Below are positions 5,415 through 23,107 of a DNA stretch of 32,841 nucleotides, one piece after another (position 1 is the first letter of the stretch; each line of letters opens with the position of its first letter). The DNA lies in the NCBI GenBank assembly GCA_029267755.1, contig JAJUHS010000010.1:1-32841 (forward strand), read 5' to 3'. The DNA comes from Clostridiales bacterium (GTDB lineage: Bacteria; Bacillota; Clostridia; Oscillospirales; Oscillospiraceae). The position numbers were made by a program, and so were the translations under genes. The notes below the pieces were generated by a model. It was not told the origin of the DNA, did not search any database, and saw nothing but the letters and a program-made list of their open reading frames with translations.

Positions 5415-6713
5415 CTATTTCATCATGCTCGGGATATATGTCGCAATTTGCGGAAAAATGATCAAAAGCACCAGTATCAGAGCATCGACCGCAAGGAACG
5501 GCAGAACGCCCTTGAAAATTTTTTCCACTTTTATTCCGCTGACCCCGGCCATCGTAAACACAGTCATTCCGACAGGAGGCGATATGGATCCGACAGCCAT
5601 AAGCTTCACCACAAAGGCCCCCAGCCAGATGGGGTCGAATCCGACTTTAGTAAGCGCTGAGTAAAAAACGGGAATCGTAAGCGCCACCATCGGCACCTCC
5701 GGCAGGAACATGCCGAGTATAAAGTATAAAACTATAAGCGCCAAAGCCAATACCCACTTTGGGACCGCTAGGCTCAGAATAAGCTTCGACAGCCACATCG
5801 GGACGCGACTGAGGCTTAAAAAGGTTACAAACAGATATGTAGCGGCCACCAGGAAGAAAACCATTCCGCAGAGCACTGCCGTATCCTTTAGCGCTTTGAT
5901 AAATTTTCCGACAGTCAGCTGGCGGAACGCAAGAGAAATAATTATTGCTCCGAGCGCTCCTATGGCACCCGCCTCGGTGGTGGTAAAAAAGCCCCCGTAT
6001 ATTCCTCCGAGCACGAGAACCATAAGGAGAATTACTGGCAAAATTTTAAGCAGAGTCTTGAGCATATATTTAAGCTCAAACTTCGGCCCGCGCGGCCCGC
6101 GCTCAGGATTTATACGGCAAAGAATTGAAACAACAATAATATATAGAACCATCTGAAGTACGCCCACGCCAAGACCCGAGAGGAAAAGCTTGCCTATCGA
6201 ATTTTCGGTAAGTATGCCGTACATTATAAATCCCATACTGGGAGGTATAAGTATGCTTAGCGGGGCGCCCGCAGCCACGCAGCCGGCCGCAAACGATTCA
6301 TCGTACTTGTTTTTTGTCATTTCGGGCATGGCCACCCTGGACATTACCAGAACCCCGACCTGCGTCGAACCGCATATCGCGCCTAAGACACCGCAGGCAA
6401 CTATCGTAGCCGAAGCTAGGCCGCCCCTGAAACGGCCGACCCACGCATACGCCGCGCTGTAAAGGTCCTGCCCCATGCAGCTTTCCGCAATTATCAGCCC
6501 CATAAAGGTAAACATCGGGATAACGGTAAATGTATATGTATTAAGGTTTGTAAACCCGGAAGCGCCCGCCACAGTCATTGCTACGTTTACATTTCGCAGA
6601 ATTATTATGCCGATGATGCTCACGAGAGACATGGCGGCTCCCACCCACATTTTTAGCGCCATCAGAACGAGCAGGACAATTATGCCAAGAAGGCCGATAA
6701 GCTCCGGACTCAT
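5415..6713 (-). CDS. dctM: TRAP transporter large permease (DctM), first system
   Basis: 432 hydrophobic residues, the usual size of the DctM subunit that carries out ion-coupled substrate translocation across the cytoplasmic membrane. Around a dozen membrane segments are visible. Family-typical stretches include GAICGSTQVGVLVMSRVAMPEM near residues 111-132, PPSMGFIMYG, and FLPEVPMVALTIP. The ATG overlaps the dctQ stop as ATGA (6710-6713), indicating translational coupling. A G-rich Shine-Dalgarno lies inside the end of dctQ. The substrate is not readable from this subunit. Confidence 0.93.
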   Translation of the reverse strand: MSPELIGLLGIIVLLVLMALKMWVGAAMSLVSIIGIIILRNVNVAMTVAGASGFTNLNTYTFTVIPMFTFMGLIIAESCMGQDLYSAAYAWVGRFRGGLASATIVACGVLGAICGSTQVGVLVMSRVAMPEMTKNKYDESFAAGCVAAGAPLSILIPPSMGFIMYGILTENSIGKLFLSGLGVGVLQMVLYIIVVSILCRINPERGPRGPKFELKYMLKTLLKILPVILLMVLVLGGIYGGFFTTTEAGAIGALGAIIISLAFRQLTVGKFIKALKDTAVLCGMVFFLVAATYLFVTFLSLSRVPMWLSKLILSLAVPKWVLALALIVLYFILGMFLPEVPMVALTIPVFYSALTKVGFDPIWLGAFVVKLMAVGSISPPVGMTVFTMAGVSGIKVEKIFKGVLPFLAVDALILVLLIIFPQIATYIPSMMK

Positions 6714-7318
6714 TTTTCGCCCCCCTTTCCGTTTTCGTAACCTGCGGAGGTCTTTTCTTTTTCCGCGGCCTTAAGTTCCGCATATTTCTTTTTGCCTAAT
6801 ACAAACAGTTCGTCCTTGTCCTCCAGCTTTGCCTCGAGCTCCCACTGGCCGCTGGCCATGGCGGCAACCTTCCTCACGACAAGGGAAAGCGTCGTAAGCG
6901 CGCCGACTGCGTAAGCAAAGCAAAACATCGCAATAAAGGGCCACTGAGGAAGACCTATGGTGGTATAAAATACATGGTTTTTGAGGCTTTTCACAGCATA
7001 ATTGAACTGCTGCCATGAAATGAAAGCTATGGTTACAAATGTCAGCGTCAGCATCACGGTATCGATTATAACCTGCGCTTTGGGGCTCAGCTTGGATGTG
7101 AGCATATCCACTTTTATCTGGCGATTGCTTAGGATTGAGGAACTCAGAGCTGTCATGTTGCACAGCAGCAGCACCTGAGCCCATTCGGTGGCGCCCAAAA
7201 TTGAACGGTTGAAAATGGTTCGGTCCAGAACCTCCGCAACCATAAGAAGCATCAAAGCCGCTATGAATCCCATGCACAGCCATGTAAAAAATCTGGATAT
7301 GCCGCGGATTATCTTCAT
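6710..7318 (-). CDS. dctQ: TRAP transporter small permease (DctQ), first system
   Basis: 202 residues with four membrane helices, as expected for DctQ, the small subunit that partners DctM. The stretch LGATEWAQVLLLCNMTALSSS matches the family's second helix. The charged C-terminal tail (about residues 165-202, many Lys and Glu) is longer than usual. The ATG is preceded by aaggagtg. It is the first TRAP gene of the set and follows the two cupins by 88 nt. Confidence 0.9.
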   Translation of the reverse strand: MKIIRGISRFFTWLCMGFIAALMLLMVAEVLDRTIFNRSILGATEWAQVLLLCNMTALSSSILSNRQIKVDMLTSKLSPKAQVIIDTVMLTLTFVTIAFISWQQFNYAVKSLKNHVFYTTIGLPQWPFIAMFCFAYAVGALTTLSLVVRKVAAMASGQWELEAKLEDKDELFVLGKKKYAELKAAEKEKTSAGYENGKGGEK

Positions 7319-8491: not shown

Positions 8492-10006
8492 TCAGTGAGC
8501 CGCATCTTTATTAGGATCCGGTATGCTGGACTGACGGTATTCCTTAAGTCCCGTGGCATCGGCCTTTGCTTTTCTTGCGAGCTCGGTGTATAGTCCGTAC
8601 TCGTATTCCTCGCATACCTCCGTATATGATTTGTCGACACGTTCGTTGCGGGGCAGCGGCACATCCTGATCTATCAAAATCTCCTGCACCTTGCGGATAT
8701 CCACGTTTCGTACATTAACGCCGTCCATTGAAGCAACGGCTGCCGCGACACCGGCGGCCTGGCCGGTTCCCACGCACTGTGGAATCAGATTCAGCCAGTC
8801 GATTGCCACGTTGTCCGCAGACAAATGGCGGCCCGGCGCAAGCAGGTTCTCGACCTTTTGCGGAAGCAGCGCGCGGTACGGTATCTCAACCGGCGCGCAG
8901 TCGTTTATCATGCATATGGTTGAGTGCCATGCGATAACGTCATCGTGTCTGGCAGCAAATGCAAAATCGTTCGCCGTCATTATGTACTCGCCCTTCAAGC
9001 GGCAGCTTCCGCGGGTTCCGAGCTGCGGCGCTATATCATATATGAACGAGTTGCGGAAAGCCAAAGGGCATACTTCCTGCAGATACTTAAGCACGTCGCG
9101 CATGGTATTGCGCGTATTCATTTCGGTTTCCGTAGCATCCTTTATCTTGGCGCAGTCGCGGTTTGGATGCCAGTTGTTTACCCAGCATATATCGTTTTGG
9201 GCGCTGGGAAGCGGAGCACAGGTGAAGCCAGCAACCTTGGCAAGGTTTTCTCGCAGAGCCGCAAACTCCTTCGGATTTGCTTTCTGCCACTCGAAGAAGA
9301 GATCGTAGTTCACTCCGCCTATACGCCATACTAGCGCTGTGGTGCTCGACCTTGTTTTGCCGTCCGCAAGCGTTGAAAACGGGGCGCCGGTTTGGCGGAA
9401 AATGTCGCCGTCGCCTGTTGCGTCGATAACTGTCTTGGCAAAGATGGCCTGGCGGCCCTCCTTGCTCTCGAAGATAACGCCCTTCACCTCGTTCCCTTCC
9501 ATAATCGGCTTTGTACCCCAGCTGTGGCAAAGAACGCGTATGGCGTCCCTATGCTCAAGAAGCATTTTGTCCATTTCAATCTTCAGTTGATTCGGCTCAT
9601 AATAGACGGCGCGCACAAGCCTTTTCGGTTCACTCTCGCTCACACATCCGTGGATGCGTGACCAGATGCCAATAAGCGCATAATCGTCGTCCTTGCCGAT
9701 TTTGCTGAGGTCTGGTCCCAATACGGCGTTCGGTATTGGACTGAGCCTTGTAAACCATTCCTCCTGAATGCCTCGCACGAAAGACTTGCCGTACCAGGAA
9801 AGCTTCGGCACCATGATGACGTAGCCTCCCGTTACATCTCCGCCCATGTAGCCGTAACGCTCCATGAGAATGATGTTTTTAGCACCCGCACGCGCTGCGG
9901 CAATTGCCGCGGAGTGCCCGGCGGCGCCGCCTCCGACGACAAGGATGTCGCATTCGTCGTATACGGGCAAAGTATTTTGAGCTTCGATGTATACCTTGTT
10001 TGCCAT
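8492..10006 (-). CDS. FAD-dependent oxidoreductase (PF12831-type)
   Basis: 504 residues, first gene of the minus-strand catabolic block. The N-terminal dinucleotide fold reads ILVVGGGAAGHSAA (GGGAAG at 25-30) with the ribose-binding acid in MERYG (Glu49). The second FAD motif VIDATGDGD is at 193-201. These fit the FAD_oxidored family, whose members oxidise or reduce small organic substrates. There is no N-terminal signal peptide or CxxCH haem motif, unlike secreted flavocytochrome fumarate/urocanate-type reductases, so it is probably cytosolic. ATG at 10006 has aggag 8-9 nt upstream. Co-location with two cupins, a TRAP importer and a 2-hydroxyacid dehydrogenase suggests redox conversion of an imported carboxylate; the substrate is unknown. 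Confidence 0.85.
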   Translation of the reverse strand: MANKVYIEAQNTLPVYDECDILVVGGGAAGHSAAIAAARAGAKNIILMERYGYMGGDVTGGYVIMVPKLSWYGKSFVRGIQEEWFTRLSPIPNAVLGPDLSKIGKDDDYALIGIWSRIHGCVSESEPKRLVRAVYYEPNQLKIEMDKMLLEHRDAIRVLCHSWGTKPIMEGNEVKGVIFESKEGRQAIFAKTVIDATGDGDIFRQTGAPFSTLADGKTRSSTTALVWRIGGVNYDLFFEWQKANPKEFAALRENLAKVAGFTCAPLPSAQNDICWVNNWHPNRDCAKIKDATETEMNTRNTMRDVLKYLQEVCPLAFRNSFIYDIAPQLGTRGSCRLKGEYIMTANDFAFAARHDDVIAWHSTICMINDCAPVEIPYRALLPQKVENLLAPGRHLSADNVAIDWLNLIPQCVGTGQAAGVAAAVASMDGVNVRNVDIRKVQEILIDQDVPLPRNERVDKSYTEVCEEYEYGLYTELARKAKADATGLKEYRQSSIPDPNKDAAH

Positions 10007-11816: not shown

Positions 11817-11845
11817 TTGACGTTTTTTGCTTAGGCATATAAAAT
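11817..11845 (+). promoter_or_regulatory. Sigma-A-type promoter of the Moco-riboswitch unit
   Basis: -35 TTGACG (11817-11822), 17-nt spacer, -10 TAAAAT (11840-11845); each box has five of six consensus bases. Transcription would start near 11852, upstream of the structured leader and about 285 nt before the first gene. Confidence 0.8.
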
Positions 11846-11907
11846 AAATAATGCGTAAGCTGGGTTATTATCCGGTGAAACAAAATAAATAATATTCTCT
11901 GAGCGAA

Positions 11908-12040
11908 AATGTCTGAAGCCTTTAGGGTATGACATTAAGCCGGCACGGATTTCGTGCCCGGGTTCAGCGGGAAACTGCGGAGCCTTCCCTGTTTGAAAAG
12001 GAGATGTGCGGCCTGACAGCCATTTGCGGTTGTCCGGTTT
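11908..12040 (+). ncRNA. Probable molybdenum-cofactor (Moco) riboswitch aptamer
   Basis: A highly structured, GC-rich leader lies between a strong promoter and a terminator ahead of a MobA-like gene. Visible parts are a small hairpin GGCAC/GTGCC (11942-11946 with 11954-11958), a purine-rich GGGAAACTGCGGAGCC segment at 11969-11984, a CCTT/AAGG-type hairpin, and GTGCGGCCTGACAGCC (12006-12021). From memory this matches the Moco RNA motif (Rfam RF01055), which senses molybdenum or tungsten cofactor and controls Moco synthesis and molybdate uptake genes. The downstream genes fit exactly. I found no cobalamin-riboswitch signature. Limits are approximate; a covariance-model search would settle it. 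Confidence 0.65.
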
Positions 12041-12044
12041 GTTT

Positions 12045-12076
12045 CCGTGTGCTCCTTTCGGTGCACGCGGTTTTTT
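12045..12076 (+). terminator. Intrinsic terminator of the riboswitch (expression platform)
   Basis: Stem arms 12045-12055 and 12060-12070 (ten pairs including one G-U, and one mismatch), 4-nt loop tttc, then six T (12071-12076). It lies after the aptamer and 62 nt before the first start codon, so ligand-controlled premature termination is the likely switch mechanism. Confidence 0.8.
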
Positions 12077-12137
12077 GTTGCGAAAAACATGTCGGCCGCG
12101 CAAATAATAGTGTTAATCTTGGATGGAGAGGGAGAAT

Positions 12138-13328
12138 ATGAAGATCGGCGCGGTAATACTGCGCGGCGGAAAAAGCAGCCGCATGGGCAGCGATAAGGCT
12201 GAGCTGAAACTTGGAGGAAAAACCTTTCTCGAATGTATAAAAAGCGAGTTGAGCGATTTTGAAGAGCTCTTGGTTTCGGTCGCAGGAGAAGCAAGCGGTC
12301 CCTGCGAGGTTAAGGATATTTATAAGGAGCAAGGCCCCATGGGAGGCATTTATTCGGCGCTTATGGCGTCGAAATCCGACGCGCTGCTGGTGATCCCCTG
12401 CGATCTGCCGCTTTTCGGACGTTCGCTGGCGAGACGGCTTGCCGCTTCAATGGACGAAGACGCCGACGCTCTAGTTTGCGTATCGGACGATGGGATACAT
12501 CCTCTTTGTGGAATATACTCGAAGACCTGCCTTAAGCCGATGAAAAAGTGCCTCGAAGCCGGGGAGAACAAGATGATGCTGCTTATCGACCAGATAAGAA
12601 CGAAACAGCTTTATATAGGCACCGACGCTTATATGCTGAAAAACATAAACACACCGCTTGACGCGCAGGCCCTCCACACCGGAGAGGCGGGCTGCAGGGT
12701 GCTTTCAAGCAAGAGAAACCGCGTACTGCTGATGACGGGCCGTGAGCCCCCTGTTATAATCAAAAGATTCGACGAGGAAACCTGCCTAAAAAAGGAGCTT
12801 TCCATGCTAAGGCGCTTGAAATTTACGGGGCTGCCGGTGTCGGCGGCGAAAAGGCTGGACGAATATACGCTCGAGCTGGAATATATTCCCGGAATCACAG
12901 CGCTAGAGTATTTTGAAAATAGGGAATTGTCCCAAAACACATTCGGGGAAACGGACATGGATACCTGCCGAATGCTCGTAAAATGGCTCTGCGATTTCTA
13001 TTCGGCGGCGGGAGAAGGCGTTTGCCTTAACGACATGAACCTTAGAAATTATATATACCAGCCGGATAAGAGCCGCTTTATCGGCGTTGATTTCGAGTGC
13101 TGCGGCGAAGGTAGCCGCGCCCGCGACGCGGGCGCCCTGCTTGCCTATATTCTCACCTATAATCCCGAGCAAACAGGCTACAAGCTTTCTATGGCCGGAT
13201 ATCTTCGCGGCTTGCTGGCGGCCGGGCTCGGGGTTTCGGAGGATAGGATAGCCAGCGAATGTTTAAGGGAGATTGAAAATATCAAGCTAAGACGCGGAGC
13301 AGGAAGCTGGAAAGGAGGATGCGGATGA
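12138..13328 (+). CDS. MobA-like molybdopterin nucleotidyltransferase fused to an aminoglycoside-phosphotransferase/RIO-like kinase domain
   Basis: 396 residues. Residues 1 to about 185 are MobA-like: nucleotide-binding LRGGKSSRMGSDK at 8-20, GPMGGIYSAL, and the metal-binding PCDLP. MobA joins GMP (MocA joins CMP) to molybdopterin. Residues about 195-390 look like a small protein-kinase-fold phosphotransferase: Lys209 in IIKRF, catalytic Asp299 and Asn304 in NDMNLRN, and metal-binding Asp318 in VDFE. The canonical MobA is about 190-200 residues, so this is a true fusion in one open frame. The ATG at 12138 is chosen over 12123 because GGAGAGGGAG lies right before it. The end overlaps the permease gene as ATGA. 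The role of the kinase part is unknown. Confidence 0.85.
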   Translation: MKIGAVILRGGKSSRMGSDKAELKLGGKTFLECIKSELSDFEELLVSVAGEASGPCEVKDIYKEQGPMGGIYSALMASKSDALLVIPCDLPLFGRSLARRLAASMDEDADALVCVSDDGIHPLCGIYSKTCLKPMKKCLEAGENKMMLLIDQIRTKQLYIGTDAYMLKNINTPLDAQALHTGEAGCRVLSSKRNRVLLMTGREPPVIIKRFDEETCLKKELSMLRRLKFTGLPVSAAKRLDEYTLELEYIPGITALEYFENRELSQNTFGETDMDTCRMLVKWLCDFYSAAGEGVCLNDMNLRNYIYQPDKSRFIGVDFECCGEGSRARDAGALLAYILTYNPEQTGYKLSMAGYLRGLLAAGLGVSEDRIASECLREIENIKLRRGAGSWKGGCG

Positions 13329-14338
13329 AAAAGCGTTTTTCAGGGACAAAGGTAATTTGGCTGCTGGCGCTTATGCTGGCAGCGGCGGCGGTCTGCTCGT
13401 TTTGTCTCGGCAGATTTTCCGTCAGCCCCAGGCAGCTTTTCGGCATCCTGCTATCCAGGATAATATATATAGAGCCGTTCTGGACAGGAACCATGGAAGT
13501 GGTTGTATTCAATATACGCCTGCCCCGCATACTGCTCGCCTGTCTTGTCGGCTGCTCGCTTTCGGCGGCAGGTGCGGCCTATCAGGGGGTTTTTCAAAAC
13601 CCCATGGCATCTCCGGATTTGCTGGGGGCTTCGTCCGGCGCCGCCTTTGGCGCGGCGCTTGCCATACTTTTGGGGGCCTCCAGCGCTATTATTACCCTCT
13701 CCGCCTTTCTGTCAGGCATAGTATCCGTAGCGCTGGTTCTGCTTATCGGCCAGCGGGCGCCGGGTAAGAAGGTAGTCAACCTTATACTTGCGGGAATCAT
13801 GGTAAGCTCTATCGCCTCTGCGGCGACCTCGTTTGTCAAACTCGTAGCGGATCCCTCAAATCAGCTACCTGCCATTACCTACTGGCTTATGGGCAGCCTT
13901 TCAGGGGCAAAGCGGGGCGAGCTGCTCTTCGCCGCCATACCCATGGCTATCGGCCTTATACCCCTTTTCGCGTTCAGATGGAGGATAAATATACTGTCGC
14001 TGGGCGATGACGAGGCGCGAAGCATGGGAGTGAATGTAAATATGCTACGGACAGCGGCTGCTCTTTGTGCCACGCTCCTGACGGCCGCAAGCGTTTCCGT
14101 CAGCGGCATGATCGGCTGGGTGGGCCTTGTTATGCCGCATATATGCCGCAGGCTTGCAGGAAACGACTACCGATTCCTTATGCCTGCATCGATGCTTGGC
14201 GGTGCTTTTTTTATGCTGCTTATCGACAATATCTCCCGCAATCTTCTTTCGACCGAAATACCCATAGGTATTCTTACAGCCTTTATCGGCGCGCCTTTCT
14301 TTATTTATCTGATACTTCGGAGAGGAGGCCGGATATGA
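13325..14338 (+). CDS. FecCD/BtuC-type ABC importer permease (probable molybdate/tungstate system)
   Basis: 337 residues, about ten membrane segments, typical of type II importer permeases that move iron chelates, cobalamin, haem or, as in the MolBCA system, molybdate/tungstate. Family signs are FNIRLPRILLACLVGCSLSAAGAAYQGVFQNP (residues about 58-90), GASSGAAFG, and GWVGLVMPHICR in the loop that contacts the ATPase. ATG at 13325 is preferred over 13319 because AAAGGAGG ends at 13318, giving a 6-nt gap. The gene overlaps the MobA-kinase stop and the ATPase start, both as ATGA, so the three are translationally coupled. Confidence 0.92.
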   Translation: MKKRFSGTKVIWLLALMLAAAAVCSFCLGRFSVSPRQLFGILLSRIIYIEPFWTGTMEVVVFNIRLPRILLACLVGCSLSAAGAAYQGVFQNPMASPDLLGASSGAAFGAALAILLGASSAIITLSAFLSGIVSVALVLLIGQRAPGKKVVNLILAGIMVSSIASAATSFVKLVADPSNQLPAITYWLMGSLSGAKRGELLFAAIPMAIGLIPLFAFRWRINILSLGDDEARSMGVNVNMLRTAAALCATLLTAASVSVSGMIGWVGLVMPHICRRLAGNDYRFLMPASMLGGAFFMLLIDNISRNLLSTEIPIGILTAFIGAPFFIYLILRRGGRI

Positions 14339-15114
14339 GCCTTACGGTGGAAAATCTGAAGTTCGCTTACGGGCGGCAAGAGGTCCTTAAAGGCATTTCC
14401 TTTACCGCTTCGGAGGGAGAACTGCTGTCGGTGCTTGGATGCAACGGGGCGGGCAAATCTACGCTCTTTAAATGTATGCTGGGGCTGCTGGAAGGTTATT
14501 CGGGCAGGATACTTGCGGACGGGCAGGACATTAAAACCCTTTCCCTGCGCAAGCTTGCCAGAAAAACAGCGTATATCCCCCAGCTTCATTATCCTGCCTT
14601 CAGTTACAGCGTTTTTGACATGGTGCTTATGGGTACGGCTCACAGGGTGTCGCCTATGGCCTCGCCGGGTGACAAAGAAAAAATCAGAACGCACAATGCA
14701 CTCGAACAAATGGGCATAGCAGGGCTAGCGGAGCGAAGCTACAACCATCTCAGCGGCGGGGAACAGCAGCTTGTACTGATGGCAAGGGCGCTTGCCCAGG
14801 AGGCTCGGATACTTATACTCGACGAGCCTACTGCGAGCCTGGACTTCGGCAACCGCATCAGGGTTCTCTCCAAAATCAGAGAGCTTGTCGGAAATGGCTA
14901 TACCGTTATTCAATCCACCCATGACCCCGAAAACGCCTTCATGTATTCAGACAGGGTGCTCGCCGTCAAATCCGGGAGAGTAATAGCCGAGGGCGCGCCT
15001 TCCGAAATACTGACTGAGGAGCTTATGAGGGAGCTTTACGGCGTAGAGGTTGATGTACGCAGCCTTGACGACGATAAAATAAGAATTTGCATACCGAAAA
15101 ACAGGAGGAAATGA
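14335..15114 (+). CDS. FepC/BtuD-type ABC importer ATPase (probable molybdate/tungstate system)
   Basis: 259 residues. Walker A GCNGAGKST at 35-43, signature LSGGEQQ at 139-145, Walker B ILILDEP at 159-165, His-loop STHD at 194-197. This powers the adjacent FecCD permease. The start ATG at 14335 overlaps the permease stop (ATGA) and has GAGAGGAGG just upstream; the longer open frame from 14065 only extends into the permease gene in another frame. Substrate is inferred from the Moco-riboswitch context, not from the ATPase itself. Confidence 0.93.
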   Translation: MSLTVENLKFAYGRQEVLKGISFTASEGELLSVLGCNGAGKSTLFKCMLGLLEGYSGRILADGQDIKTLSLRKLARKTAYIPQLHYPAFSYSVFDMVLMGTAHRVSPMASPGDKEKIRTHNALEQMGIAGLAERSYNHLSGGEQQLVLMARALAQEARILILDEPTASLDFGNRIRVLSKIRELVGNGYTVIQSTHDPENAFMYSDRVLAVKSGRVIAEGAPSEILTEELMRELYGVEVDVRSLDDDKIRICIPKNRRK

Positions 15115-15120
15115 TGTAAA

Positions 15121-16218
15121 ATGGGCAAGAGATTATTAGCATTATTATTGGCTCTAGTGATTGCATTAAGCGTAGCGGCCTGCACCGCCAAACCCGCTTC
15201 GACGGCGGCCCCGTCTGCGTCCCCCGCATCGGAAGCGAAGCAGACCCCGGGCAAAACCATTAAATTTAAGGATTCAACCGGGCGCGAGGTTGATGTGCCG
15301 GCCGAAATAAAGCGCATAGCTGTTACGGGGCCTTCAGCGCAAACGGTGGTGTTCGCACTGGCGCCCGATATGCTGGTCGGCGTCGCCACTCCGTTTGCAG
15401 ACTCTGCCGCCAATTTTCTGAATGAAAAATACCTTAAGCTGCCGGTTTTGGGCCAGCTTTACGGTGGTAAGGGCCAGATCAACCTTGAGGCGCTGCTGGC
15501 TGCTGCACCGCAGGTGGTAATCGACATCGGAGATACGACGGGGAACATCGCGGCGGATATGGATTCGCTCGCCAAGCAGACGGGCATACCCTTTGTGCAT
15601 ATTTCGGCGTCGATAGGAAAAATGGGAGAAACCTATAAAATGCTCGGCGAGCTTTTGGGGCTAAAAAACGAAGCAAAGGTTCTCGGCGATTACTGCGACG
15701 AGATCTATAACAAAACGACAGCAATAGCAAACTCCGCCAAAAAGGTAAGCGTGCTTTACTGCCTCGGAGATAAGGGCATAAACGTCATCGCCCAGAAATC
15801 ATATCATTCGGAGGCCATAGATCTTCTCGCCGACAACAAGGCGGTGGTGGCCTCGCCCTCGTCAAAGGGTACCGGCAACGAGGTCGATATGGAGCAAATT
15901 CTCAAATGGGATCCCGAGGTAATTATTTTCGCTCCGGACAGTGTATACAAAACGGTTTCCAAGGATCCCTCATGGCAGAAGCTTAAGGCAATATCGAGCG
16001 GCAGATATTACGAGGTGCCCTACGGTATGCATAACTGGATGGGTTTCCCGCCCTCTGTTCAGAGATATATGGGAATGCTTTGGCTTACAAAGATCCTGTA
16101 TCCCAAGGAAGCGACCTACGACCTCTATACCGAAATTCAGAGATACTACAAGCTCTTTTACCACTGTGACCTGACGCAGGAGCAGTATAAGGCCATGATG
16201 GTTAATTCTCTGGGCTGA
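15121..16218 (+). CDS. ABC transporter substrate-binding lipoprotein, BtuF/FepB/MolA-like
   Basis: 365 residues. A lipoprotein signal ends at Cys21 (LSVAAC), followed by an Ala/Ser/Pro-rich linker. The PF01497-type periplasmic-binding fold follows, opening with KIKFKDSTGREVDVPAEIKRIAV-like sequence and containing GGKGQINLEALLAAAPQVVIDIGD. It captures ligand for the adjacent permease and ATPase. Related proteins bind iron chelates, haem, cobalamin or molybdate/tungstate (MolA). AGGAGG lies 12 nt upstream, a long gap, with a tiny ATG-ATG-TAA between. It is the last gene before a strong terminator. Confidence 0.9.
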   Translation: MGKRLLALLLALVIALSVAACTAKPASTAAPSASPASEAKQTPGKTIKFKDSTGREVDVPAEIKRIAVTGPSAQTVVFALAPDMLVGVATPFADSAANFLNEKYLKLPVLGQLYGGKGQINLEALLAAAPQVVIDIGDTTGNIAADMDSLAKQTGIPFVHISASIGKMGETYKMLGELLGLKNEAKVLGDYCDEIYNKTTAIANSAKKVSVLYCLGDKGINVIAQKSYHSEAIDLLADNKAVVASPSSKGTGNEVDMEQILKWDPEVIIFAPDSVYKTVSKDPSWQKLKAISSGRYYEVPYGMHNWMGFPPSVQRYMGMLWLTKILYPKEATYDLYTEIQRYYKLFYHCDLTQEQYKAMMVNSLG

Positions 16219-20102: not shown

Positions 20103-20636
20103 TTAAGCCGGCCAGTTGTCCATTACATCCCGGCGCACCTCCGGATTGAAGAGACCTATTGTGCTTTTCACAGCGCAGAATAACTGCACAATAAAATAAG
20201 CGAAAAAGCCTACTGCCATGAGCAAATAAAACGGATAAAAGGGGATTAGCAGGGCAGTCGTTGACATATTGACCTTACGCGTGAAGATAAAATGCAGCCA
20301 TGAGGCGTATGTCAATAGCCCAACAATGAAGGCTCCGCACCACTCGTGGAGCGTCCACAGAACCATGGGACTCAGTCCGGGGAGCTTCTTCATAAAAAAT
20401 GCTATGTGGACAAGGCCCTTTTTATGCTGGGTATAGGCAAGGGCGAAGAAAATTACTATTGACTCGGCCAGGCTTACATATTCGCTGGAGCCTATGATGG
20501 AATAATTGAAAAACTTTCGGCCGAAAACGTCTACCACAATGACCATCATAAGATATGTGAGAGCCGCTATGCTGACATAAGCGAAGGCGCTGGCAAAATA
20601 CCCCAGATACTTTTCGGCTTTTTTAACTTTGTTCAC
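20103..20636 (-). CDS. dctQ: TRAP transporter small permease (DctQ), second system
   Basis: 177 residues from a GTG start at 20636; four membrane helices. It contains the family-typical FNYSIIGSSEYVSLAESIVIFFALAYTQ (about 42-70). The GTG is chosen because AGGTGGT lies about 7 nt upstream; the two GTG codons at 20648-20643 overlap that site. It is the last gene of a dctM-dctP-dctQ order, unlike the usual position ahead of dctM and unlike the first system here. Confidence 0.88.
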   Translation of the reverse strand: MNKVKKAEKYLGYFASAFAYVSIAALTYLMMVIVVDVFGRKFFNYSIIGSSEYVSLAESIVIFFALAYTQHKKGLVHIAFFMKKLPGLSPMVLWTLHEWCGAFIVGLLTYASWLHFIFTRKVNMSTTALLIPFYPFYLLMAVGFFAYFIVQLFCAVKSTIGLFNPEVRRDVMDNWPA

Positions 20637-20669
20637 AGGTAACACCACCTAATGTCATTGTTTTTATAG

Positions 20670-21755
20670 TCACCCTTTGTATACCTCGTTAAACTCCTTG
20701 ATATATTTTACGGCGGTGTCGAAGATGGCCTGGCCGTCGTAGCCCTTGCTTTTCATCGTGTCGATCCACTGCTGCCAAGCGGGTTTTGCTGCGGCGGTAA
20801 GCTCGGCGGAAAACGCGCTGTCGGGAGCCGCTACCGTAACCTTATGCTCCTGGCACTTTGCAAGCATATTCTTGACCTGCTCGTTGTGAACGCCCGGGAC
20901 CTGCTTGAGGAACCAGTCTCCGCTTTCGTCGATGATTTTCTTAAGGTCATCTGGGAGCTTATTGTATACATCCTTGTTCATACAGAACATGGTAAGCGGA
21001 TAAATTGCGTTTGCTGTGAGCAGGTAGTCTATCTGCTCATAGAGGGCGGAGGACTGCAGCTGGTCAAAGAAGAAAAGGCCGCCGTCTATGATGTTCTTTT
21101 CCATATACTCATAGCCGTCGTTAATGCCGACGCTGACAGGATTTACGCCAAGGTTTTTCATCCAGGTTGTGGTATAGGCATTGGAAATGCGGAGTTTCAG
21201 TCCCGCCATATCCGCGGCGGATTTTATCTGCTTTTGCGCCGAGAAGAGTATCGGGCTTGCCGTGGCGGAATGCAAAGCAATAACCTTAAGGTTGGACCAT
21301 TCCTTTGTAAGATAGTTGGTTTCCTTAAGCATCTTGTTCATTGCCGCCGTAACGACCTCCTGGTTATTTGCCCCCATATAGGGAAGTCCGAAAACCTCCG
21401 TAGCCGGGAACACTCCGGGGTAAATCGTAACGCCGCTCCAAAAGCCGTCGGTCACGCCCCCGATGCAGTTGTTCACGCAGTCGGGGAGCTTGCCGAGCGC
21501 GCCGTTTGCGTAAATGGTCGCCTTGAGGCGGCCGTTGCTCTTCTCAGAGATGTATTCGGCCCATTTTACCAAAACCGGATATACCGCGGAATTCTCAGAG
21601 TTGGGGTAGTCGATTTTAAATGTATAAACTTTTGTGTCGGAAGCAGAGGAAGTCTTTGGGCCGCTTTGGCCCGTTCCCGAGCCGCAGGCGGCCAGGAGAG
21701 ATAGCGCGATGGCAACTACCAGAAGCAGCGATATGGCTTTGAACTGTTTTTTCAT
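20670..21755 (-). CDS. dctP: TRAP transporter solute-binding lipoprotein (DctP family), second system
   Basis: 361 residues from the ATG at 21755, which has aaggag 8 nt upstream; a longer frame to 21794 lacks a good site. Lipoprotein signal with Cys24 (SLLAAC). The ligand-carboxylate Arg is present as GLKLR (Arg189), so a carboxylate substrate is expected. Typical sections TIYANGALG and NDGYEYMEKNIIDGGLFF are visible. The protein differs strongly from the first system's DctP, so the two systems likely carry different substrates. It lies 33 nt before dctQ. Confidence 0.92.
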   Translation of the reverse strand: MKKQFKAISLLLVVAIALSLLAACGSGTGQSGPKTSSASDTKVYTFKIDYPNSENSAVYPVLVKWAEYISEKSNGRLKATIYANGALGKLPDCVNNCIGGVTDGFWSGVTIYPGVFPATEVFGLPYMGANNQEVVTAAMNKMLKETNYLTKEWSNLKVIALHSATASPILFSAQKQIKSAADMAGLKLRISNAYTTTWMKNLGVNPVSVGINDGYEYMEKNIIDGGLFFFDQLQSSALYEQIDYLLTANAIYPLTMFCMNKDVYNKLPDDLKKIIDESGDWFLKQVPGVHNEQVKNMLAKCQEHKVTVAAPDSAFSAELTAAAKPAWQQWIDTMKSKGYDGQAIFDTAVKYIKEFNEVYKG

Positions 21756-21793
21756 GTTATTTCTCCTTTTCAAAAAATTCTTATAAAAACGCA

Positions 21794-23107
21794 TCAGGCG
21801 GCCCCATATATTAAATTGGGCAGCCAGAGCGAAAGCTGGGGAACAAAGATGGCTATTATCGTGACGGCTATGAGAGCGATTACATAAGGTATGCTGGCTT
21901 TATAAATGCTGGCAAGGGAGATGCTTTTGTCAAGACCCGCCGCAATGAAGAGATTGATGCCGATCGGCGGAGATATCGTTCCGAGAACCATAACGAGAAC
22001 TATGATAACGCCGAACCAGACCGGATCGAACCCGAGCTTCATAACGATCGGATAGAATATGGGGATTGTGATGAGAACCGCGGAAAGCGTATCCATAAAC
22101 ATTCCGATTATGATATAAAGGACAAACATAAGGCCGATTATTACAAAACGGTTGACGTCCATACCCGCTATAGAGGCCGCCAGATTCTGGGGGAGGCGGG
22201 TAATTGTGAGGAAGTATCCGAAGACATAGGCGCCCATCATTATCTGGAAAATCATCATTGTTGACTTTAATACGGAATTCATGCGGTCAATAAATACCTT
22301 AAAGCTGAGTTTACGGCATATCAAGGTATATATTATAGCGAAGAACGCGCCGCAGGCCGCCGCTTCGGTTGACGAGAAGAAGCCGCTGAACATACCTCCT
22401 ATGACAACACCGAACAAAACTATAATCGGGATAAGGCCTTTCAGGGAAGCAAGCTTTTCCTTCAAAGGATAGGATTCTCCCCTTGGCGCCAAAGAGGGAT
22501 TGCGTTTACAGACTATCGCACAGGCAACCATGTAAGCGACTATCAGAAGCACACCGGGAACAATGCCCGCGGCAAAAAGGCGTCCTACCGAAACCGAGGC
22601 GGTAAGTCCATACAGAATAAAGCCGGTGCTGGGGGGTATCAGCCAGCTGAGAGTGCCTCCCGCGGCTGCCGTTGCGGCGCTGAAGCCGTCGTCGTACTTA
22701 TACCTCTGCATTTCTGGGAGAGCCAGCTTTCCCATCGTGGCTACCGCGGCCGAGCTTGAGCCGCAGATGGCTCCGAAGCCTCCGCAGGATACTATCGTTG
22801 CCAAAGAAAGACCGCCCGGAAATTTTCCGAACCATCTCTCGCAGGTATCGTACAGGCCCTTGCTCATTCCGGATTGCAGCGCAAATTCGCCCATTATTAT
22901 GAACAGGGGAATGACGCACATCGTGTAACTGGAGGCTGTGGTAAACGGAACGGTTCGGAATAGATACAACGCCGTTTTAAAGCTGCCGGAAGCAATTGCA
23001 TATCCGACCAGGCCTACCAAGAACATAGAGACACCCAAATTCATGCCCAGGATTACCAGGACAACCATTGCAATTATCCCTATGATCGCCAGTGTCATAA
23101 GATCCAT
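21794..23107 (-). CDS. dctM: TRAP transporter large permease (DctM), second system
   Basis: 437 residues, about 12 membrane helices. Family stretches include GGFGAICGSSSAAVATMGKLALPEMQ (about 108-133), PPSTGFILYG, GMFMDTLSAVLITIPIFYP and GTISPPIGINLFIAAG. It is the first gene of its operon and lies 38 nt ahead of dctP. The Shine-Dalgarno is poor (aaggtgg about 13 nt before the ATG), so translation may be modest or use the in-frame ATG three codons later. Confidence 0.93.
   Translation of the reverse strand: MDLMTLAIIGIIAMVVLVILGMNLGVSMFLVGLVGYAIASGSFKTALYLFRTVPFTTASSYTMCVIPLFIIMGEFALQSGMSKGLYDTCERWFGKFPGGLSLATIVSCGGFGAICGSSSAAVATMGKLALPEMQRYKYDDGFSAATAAAGGTLSWLIPPSTGFILYGLTASVSVGRLFAAGIVPGVLLIVAYMVACAIVCKRNPSLAPRGESYPLKEKLASLKGLIPIIVLFGVVIGGMFSGFFSSTEAAACGAFFAIIYTLICRKLSFKVFIDRMNSVLKSTMMIFQIMMGAYVFGYFLTITRLPQNLAASIAGMDVNRFVIIGLMFVLYIIIGMFMDTLSAVLITIPIFYPIVMKLGFDPVWFGVIIVLVMVLGTISPPIGINLFIAAGLDKSISLASIYKASIPYVIALIAVTIIAIFVPQLSLWLPNLIYGAA

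Follow-up and report, generated by a model that had tools for sequence, protein, structure and literature searches.

A single reading frame of a clostridial genome joins a MobA-type nucleotidyltransferase to a small domain with a kinase fold, downstream of a molybdenum cofactor (Moco) riboswitch and coupled to the genes of an ABC importer, and homologs of the kinase are linked in other genomes to MobA or MobB and to ECF-type importers. An earlier note on the same DNA had placed the protein in a molybdenum/tungsten cofactor pathway, a placement that is now close to certain given five fusions with MobA, in either domain order, the adjacency of the kinase to MobB and the Moco riboswitches. We propose, with belief and doubt in about equal parts, that the fusion protein is a bifunctional Moco-salvage enzyme whose kinase would re-phosphorylate an imported, dephosphorylated molybdopterin cofactor, to which MobA would add GMP. 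In this model we infer the kinase activity, its substrate, the order of the steps and the cargo of the importers. The salvage and uptake context and the missing Moco synthesis genes are additions to what the earlier note had described.

The fused frame and its two domains

The frame at 12138-13328 (+) of the window (the whole 32,841-nt stretch that was analyzed) encodes 396 residues before its stop codon, and the two parts are joined without an internal stop, as the earlier note had claimed. An alternative start for the gene is the ATG at 12123, and GGGAGA lies upstream of the ATG at 12138. The MobA-type domain (12138-12680, +; approximately residues 1-181) was recognized by PF12804, TIGR02665 and MobA relatives in the PDB (2e8b, 1fr9). 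Residues 5-146 match NTP_transf_3 (PF12804) with an E value of 3.2e-30 and 105.9 bits against a cut-off of 27, and both MobA motifs read by eye in the note, LRGGKSSRMGSDK and PCDLP, were found in the translation; the half carries an Asp motif and a motif of the LxGGxSxRMGxDK type, which we take to be the MobA signature. TIGR02665 (MobA) is the best of 14 NCBIfam models on the fusion protein, at 105.5 bits over residues 4-176; its equivalog cut-off of 151.85 is not reached, nor does any other of these models reach its own. Taken from sequence, GMP transfer is the likely role of this predicted MobA half. When the fusion protein was searched against the whole genome of the window (2.0 Mb in 162 contigs, 93% complete), its own locus was the sole place that matched, and no second MobA was therefore found.

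The remainder of the frame (12693-13325, +; residues 186-396) was assigned as a small kinase-fold domain by profile searches of the PDB, AlphaFold2, Foldseek and VIA-align. A profile of 26 homologs matched RIO2 with an E value of 2.6e-7, and also KEOPS kinases, amicoumacin kinase and choline kinase. The AlphaFold2 model computed from the 26-homolog alignment (pLDDT 94.2, pTM 0.88) had human PRPK as its top Foldseek match (E 4.8e-9, TM 0.67). VIA-align placed it on PRPK with a Z score of 18.6 over 188 residues at 3.0 Å and, among further structures, on Bud32 (16.9), APH(3')-Ia (15.8), methylthioribose kinase (14.3) and homoserine kinase (14.0), with 11-17% identity in the alignments listed. The modeled two-lobed fold contains a β3 lysine (Lys209), an αC glutamate, the catalytic aspartate and its asparagine (Asp299 and Asn304) and the aspartate of the DFx motif (Asp318, in DFE); the stretch that follows DFE is short. 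All 26 aligned homologs share Lys209, Glu220, Asp318 and Glu320; conservation reaches 90% or more for Asp299, Asn304, Ser191, Asn194 and both residues of the Arg385-Arg386 pair. Thus the residues singled out beforehand by the note (Lys209, Asp299/Asn304 and Asp318) all prove to be kinase-motif residues, and structure prediction, which it had suggested as a check, confirmed a predicted kinase fold in the C-terminal half.

Judged by family cut-offs, the domain is outside the Bud32, APH and choline kinase families. Residues 293-340 match APH (PF01636) weakly (E 3e-4; 21.1 bits, just below the cut-off of 23.2); homologs from locus L079 (20.2 bits), locus L157 (20.9) and genome G446 (17.1) also fall below that cut-off, and the kinase of G279 gave no APH match up to an E value of 0.01. 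The NCBIfam Bud32 models did not match the window's protein up to an E value of 1, and the L079 homolog scored 30.1 bits against a cut-off of 188. A reading as a choline kinase of the LicCA type was rejected, as PF01633 gave 13.9 bits where 29 are required and the rest of the protein resembles MobA. A tblastn search of 72,556 plasmid records with the kinase domain returned no match. Altered catalytic loops were seen in two kinase homologs, at L010 805-1968 (DHLHLNH) and L007 1192-1887 (GNIDLKN). These belong to G279 and G108, both of which have MoaC, MoeA and MoaA matches; the altered loops would fit a lost need for the kinase where synthesis is intact, and two cases prove nothing.

The fusion is also present in other genomes, where the note had advised looking for it. 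The MobA-kinase order occurs in G024, of the same genus as the window, again without a stop, and the reverse kinase-MobA order occurs in G102, of the window's family, and in G279 and G446, of other families of the same order. Between the window and G024, dN/dS is ~0.16 for the MobA part and ~0.15 for the kinase part, approximate values, since synonymous sites are almost saturated. Since the join is conserved in G024 it is no assembly error, and an artifact or a chance joining of two genes, including the sequencing error that the note had named as a possible refutation, is scarcely credible and was rejected: both halves of the fusion kept in G024 show a dN/dS near 0.15, and three more genomes carry the fusion in reverse. 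In the tree, the three kinase-MobA sequences group together and the MobA-kinase pair stands separate; because long branches meet there, one origin or two are both possible. The kinase-MobA frame of G446 encodes 377 amino acids from a GTG start, and a TGA reported there falls upstream of that start. Separate but adjacent genes encode MobA, MobB and the kinase in Anaeromicropila populeti, where they are followed by a 1096-aa frame that matches a molybdopterin oxidoreductase profile built here; this frame may resemble the weak matches of 1060-1200 aa and was not counted as a molybdoenzyme.

Riboswitches, importers and other neighbors of the kinase

Upstream of the fusion, RF01055, the Moco riboswitch aptamer, was found by cmscan at 11885-12019 (+) with 69.7 bits over the full model (1-135) against a gathering threshold of 36, which bears out the Moco-type riboswitch that the note had claimed. 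It is preceded by a promoter-like site at 11817-11845 (+; TTGACG, 17 nt, TAAAAT), picked up by a consensus scan alone with 10 of 12 matches, and followed by a terminator-like hairpin and T run at 12046-12067 (+), located by a pattern scan, which is a possible expression platform. The coupling of the fusion to an ABC importer also held, as its stop overlaps by 10 bases the start, at 13319, of a gene for a FecCD/BtuC-type permease (13319-14338, +; PF01032, E 9.8e-91). Genes for an ABC transporter ATPase (14335-15114, +; PF00005, E 2.8e-32) and a substrate-binding lipoprotein of the Peripla_BP_2 type (15121-16218, +; PF01497, E 7e-18) follow. The closest solved relative of the permease is HI1471 (MolB; 2nq2, E 3.8e-69), and among solved structures the binding protein matches 4pag and 4ovk best and HI_1472 (MolA) third. 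MolBA carries molybdate, and molybdate may for these reasons be the cargo of the window's importer. No ECF S component was found within the window itself. Two TRAP-type transporter sets also lie in the window, at 5415-7318 and 20103-23107 (-); DctM was confirmed for 5415-6713 and the rest of these sets was assigned by eye.

Scanning 84,980 species genomes with the kinase alignment gave 58 pattern hits, from which 46 loci were named, mostly in Bacillota and also in Chloroflexota, Actinomycetota, candidate division WOR-3 and Sumerlaeota. With neighbor profiles built here, MobB was found in 38 of the 46, and in 30 of those 38 it lies on the same strand within 60 nt. EcfT occurs in 35 loci, a molybdopterin-domain-like (PF00174-like) protein in 33, and a vitamin-type ECF S component and a secreted nucleotide-pyrophosphatase-like protein in 32 each; the neighbor profiles were partly trained on genomes among these 46, so that some loci match by construction, and one of them (L152) is G024 itself. 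Four loci have neither MobA nor any of these five proteins, three of them on contigs shorter than 6 kb. RF01055 was present in 25 of the 43 loci scanned, the window included, and absent from 18; its position relative to the genes was read in several of the 43, without tabulation.

One cluster with a stand-alone kinase is L079 (genome G580), which encodes, in order, a binding protein, a TiaS-like protein, an S component (PF09819), a nucleotide-pyrophosphatase-like lipoprotein (PF01663), a molybdopterin-domain protein (PF00174), two EcfA, EcfT, a MobB-FeS protein and the kinase. Its ECF set is complete (PF09819, PF02361 and two ABC_tran proteins, for which ECF_ATPase_1 is the best NCBIfam model, below cut-off). 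The TiaS-like gene, at L079 1117-1866, encodes a TiaS/methanogenesis-marker-11-like protein inside the ECF-MobB-kinase cluster. G102 and G446 share a compact operon of a riboswitch, an S component, a PF00174-like protein and kinase-MobA. In G102 no Pfam domain was found in the S component and no PF00174 in its neighbor, where a DUF2116 match falls below cut-off; the two labels rest there on profiles built without the G102 and G446 sequences, with scores of 102 and 60 bits, respectively.

The S component matched PF09819 in all three loci tested (L079, L083 and L015). The sole sequence relative of the S components in the PDB is the HMP/thiamine protein YkoE (5edl), a weak match at E 0.0014, and the top Foldseek matches of an S-component model (pLDDT 80) are biotin, pantothenate and thiamine S components, again weak, with E values of at least 0.03. 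This likeness to YkoE and to vitamin S components points to an organic, vitamin-like cargo. An alignment of 14 of the PF00174-like secreted proteins showed no conserved cysteine; in sulfite oxidase a conserved cysteine is the molybdenum ligand.

Several further loci deserve description in their own right. In L137, a stand-alone kinase gene is immediately preceded by two Moco riboswitches in tandem (8608-8724 and 8771-8882). L087 has a second Moco riboswitch (2603-2729, -), which lies upstream of a large protein (828 aa, cut by the end of the stretch), and in L162, L164 and L165, which are related to L087, frames of 1512-1515 aa gave weak PF00174-like matches. In the WOR-3 loci L158, L159 and L160 the kinase has no recognized MobA or MobB nearby, and one of the three has an S component ~4.5 kb away on the opposite strand. 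The kinases of genus g113 (L098 7834-8502 and L097 2333-3001) have no recognized MobA or MobB adjacent and an ApbE-like gene, assigned by eye, near them; as no Moco synthesis, PF00384 or AFOR_C matches were found there, these kinases may serve another substrate.

Cofactor synthesis and molybdoenzymes in kinase carriers

MoaC, MoeA_N and the MoaA C-terminal domain were searched for in 41 genomes, comprising 31 carriers of the kinase and 10 hand-picked non-carriers. Six carriers came from a one-sequence search of the family and 4, 19 and 2 from three further searches; in the last two of these (19 and 2), matches above 60 bits were kept, and the rest, below 40 bits and mostly in much longer frames, were dropped. 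Two of the six from the one-sequence search score lower, G101 (36.6 bits) and G108 (28.1 bits, with its altered catalytic loop), and the non-carrier G066 has a 19-bit kinase match. All three synthesis markers were unmatched in 11 of the 31 carriers, the window's genome included (G000, G024, G102, G446, G386, G526, G701, G641, G206, G230 and G248), most carriers being fragmented draft assemblies and some well under 90% complete. Six of these 11 match PF00384 and five match AFOR_C, so that eight have one or both; the PF00384 match of G386 is in a 1111-aa frame that is possibly no molybdoenzyme, and the AFOR_C matches of G102 are partial. The window's genome encodes two enzymes of the pyrogallol-hydroxytransferase type. 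Of the two molybdopterin oxidoreductase (PF00384) genes beside the G102 fusion, one is interrupted by a stop. G206, G230 and G248, which belong to one genus, had no matches to Moco synthesis genes, PF00384 or AFOR_C. Two genomes of the window's genus without a kinase match, G120 and G183, have weak PF00384 matches alone, in frames of 1083 and 1060 aa. Among all 31 carriers, MoaC was found in 19 and AFOR_C matches in 22; as 19 have MoaC, possession of the kinase extends beyond cofactor auxotrophs.

The note had also asked how the gene is distributed relative to molybdoenzymes, and in a sample of 200 genomes of the window's family the kinase occurred in 6 of the 95 with PF00384 and in none of the 105 without it (p 0.011). 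A seventh match, in G160, was left out of this count, since its 1691-aa frame was read as an ordinary Ser/Thr kinase. MoaC, the one Moco synthesis gene searched for in this sample, was unmatched in 27 of the 95 PF00384 genomes, two of which (G120 and G183) have the weak PF00384 matches described above. A rule by which every MoaC-less PF00384 genome would carry the kinase was rejected: the kinase was found in 3 of these 27 and in 3 of the 68 with MoaC (p 0.35), a sample too small to show whether carriers without synthesis are over-represented and one in which carriers may be missed because the search used one sequence and not a profile. Several MoaC-less PF00384 genomes are more than 95% complete (e.g., G002, G054 and G061), and in 24 of the 27 the one-sequence search found no kinase; such genomes possibly have other routes to Moco, or genes that were missed.

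Proposed salvage route, its alternatives and known systems

In the route that we propose, the organism, which apparently makes no Moco de novo, would for that reason take up a pre-formed (metal-)molybdopterin or its dephosphorylated form. Outside the cell, the secreted pyrophosphatase-like protein would trim the cofactor, which would then be imported. The C-terminal kinase would restore the terminal phosphate on the pterin side chain and so trap molybdopterin inside, and the N-terminal MobA would join that phosphate to GMP, giving (bis-)MGD for enzymes of the DMSO reductase family. MobA requires the terminal phosphate of molybdopterin, and a two-step salvage logic of this kind is known for other cofactors (CobU, NadR, RibF). 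Because MoeA was not found, the imported form would be metal-bound, or loaded with metal by another route. The Moco riboswitch would lower expression of the operon when cofactor is plentiful, in the way that genes for B12 uptake are controlled by B12 riboswitches. In favor of salvage are the linkage of the kinase to MobA and MobB, the Moco riboswitches, the compact operons of G102 and G446, the vitamin-type S components and the 11 carriers without matches to the synthesis markers; a kinase coupled to MobA, a vitamin-type importer, a secreted pyrophosphatase-like protein and regulation by Moco would together form a coherent pathway. Several observations count against salvage, namely the resemblance of the window's importer to MolBCA, MoaC in 19 of 31 carriers, the 24 of 27 MoaC-less PF00384 genomes in which no kinase was found, the PF00174-like proteins without a conserved cysteine, the interrupted molybdopterin oxidoreductase gene of G102, the draft state of most carrier assemblies, and the three genomes G206, G230 and G248 without PF00384 or AFOR_C matches.

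The fold itself invites another explanation, in which the kinase acts as a Bud32/RIO-like ATPase or as a protein kinase, driving or controlling MobA, MobB or the importer, and leaves the cofactor unmodified. RIO and Bud32 proteins are mainly ATPases; PRPK (Z 18.6) and Bud32 (16.9) are the closest structures, RIO kinases are the top profile matches, and the many loci in which MobB lies next to the kinase would suit a partner protein. However, small-molecule kinases follow close behind (APH(3')-Ia, 15.8; methylthioribose kinase, 14.3; homoserine kinase, 14.0), and the short stretch after DFE is unlike protein kinases that carry a substrate-binding activation segment. Moreover, two-step salvage enzymes usually consist of a nucleotidyltransferase and a kinase in one fused protein (RibF, NadR, CobU, LicCA). 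We regard this explanation as unlikely; a partner protein as the kinase substrate is possible, and the best-fitting option of those listed in the earlier note is that the kinase phosphorylates a small molecule related to Moco.

The window's importer could also be read at face value, as part of an operon for molybdate or tungstate uptake and cofactor finishing in which the kinase acts on some other metabolite, e.g., a guanine nucleoside for GTP. The likeness of the permease to HI1471 and of the binding protein to HI_1472 suits this, as do the Moco riboswitches known upstream of molybdate transporters according to the accessible text of PMC2408646. Yet the window's genome has no MoaA, MoaC or MoeA matches, for which reason molybdate alone should yield no cofactor there, and in G102 and G446 the fusion is paired with a vitamin-type S component instead, so that such an operon seems to us distinctly unlikely. 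Finally, the kinase might belong to a modified or alternative de novo route of anaerobes, e.g., to a tungsten-pterin, rather than to salvage. The carriers with MoaC (19 of 31) and AFOR_C (22 of 31) are in keeping with it, but it leaves unexplained both the carriers without MoaA, MoaC and MoeA matches and the presence of importers and secreted proteins next to the kinase, and we hold it to be improbable.

Behind the salvage model lies a broader suggestion, which we advance tentatively, that Moco is an exchangeable vitamin of anaerobic bacteria, captured under riboswitch control, trimmed by a pyrophosphatase, imported by ECF- or BtuCD-type transporters, phosphorylated by a kinase of a new family and finished by MobA and MobB. 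No molybdopterin kinase or bacterial Moco salvage enzyme was found among the papers listed by our searches on Moco uptake and salvage, outside most subscription journals and bioRxiv, nor in the accessible text of PMC3766115, PMC2408646, PMC6147048, PMC9793310, PMC4511579, PMC12282271 and PMC9607355, and no two-step salvage enzyme of the kinase-nucleotidyltransferase type was found described for Moco in the literature searched. As far as the accessible parts of these papers go, a "molybdopterin import cluster" is mentioned without detail in Desulfitobacterium (PMC4511579), some T11SS proteins are suggested as possible molybdopterin uptake factors (PMC12282271), and a table of riboswitch-regulated coenzyme uptake covers B12, thiamin, riboflavin, queuosine and folate and not Moco (PMC3766115). 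The puzzle of orphan molybdoproteins is likewise already in print. If the salvage model is true, genomes without MoaA, MoaC and MoeA could run molybdenum or tungsten enzymes and part of this puzzle would be explained, kinase-MobA with a vitamin-type importer being a concrete, testable answer for some orphan molybdoproteins. It would place Moco among the cofactors shared between microbes, fill in a salvage step that is missing so far, and point to candidate transporters of the cofactor that, in the accessible text of PMC9793310, C. elegans takes from its food by unknown means. A possible biochemical tool would be the loading of molybdoenzymes from outside.

Among known systems, MobA (PF12804, TIGR02665) has the N-terminal domain, the motifs and the likely GMP-transfer role in common with the fusion, which differs in its sub-equivalog score (105.5 vs. 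151.85 bits) and its extra kinase domain. In the bifunctional MobA/MobB and MoaC/MobA proteins (PRK14489, PRK14490, PRK14500), MobA is likewise joined to a Moco-pathway domain; its partner there, going by model name, is MobB or MoaC, whereas in the window it is a kinase fold. Bud32/PRPK, RIO, APH and choline kinases have the same fold as the window's kinase and the same set of Lys, Glu, Asp, Asn and DFx-type residues, at 11-17% identity in the structure alignments listed and with no family cut-off reached, and where Bud32 and RIO have KEOPS and ribosome partners, kinases of the window's type have MobA and MobB. CobU, NadR, RibF and LicCA carry a kinase and a nucleotidyltransferase on a single polypeptide, and the two activities act successively on the precursor of a cofactor; these enzymes serve other cofactors, and several of them have other folds. 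The S component of the kinase clusters resembles those of YkoE and other vitamin ECF transporters in matching PF09819, and YkoE itself weakly, with EcfA and EcfT adjoining in L079, but the clusters differ by their MobB, kinase and molybdopterin-domain-like neighbors, their frequent Moco riboswitch and low identity. MolBCA (HI1470-1472) includes the closest solved relative of the window's permease, and its binding protein also matches; what sets the window's importer apart is its coupling to the MobA-kinase fusion and a genome in which MoeA_N has no match. Dietary Moco uptake by C. elegans, as the accessible part of PMC9793310 describes it, concerns an animal, protein-bound Moco and transport by unknown mechanisms, and it shares with the salvage model the use of pre-formed, external Moco.
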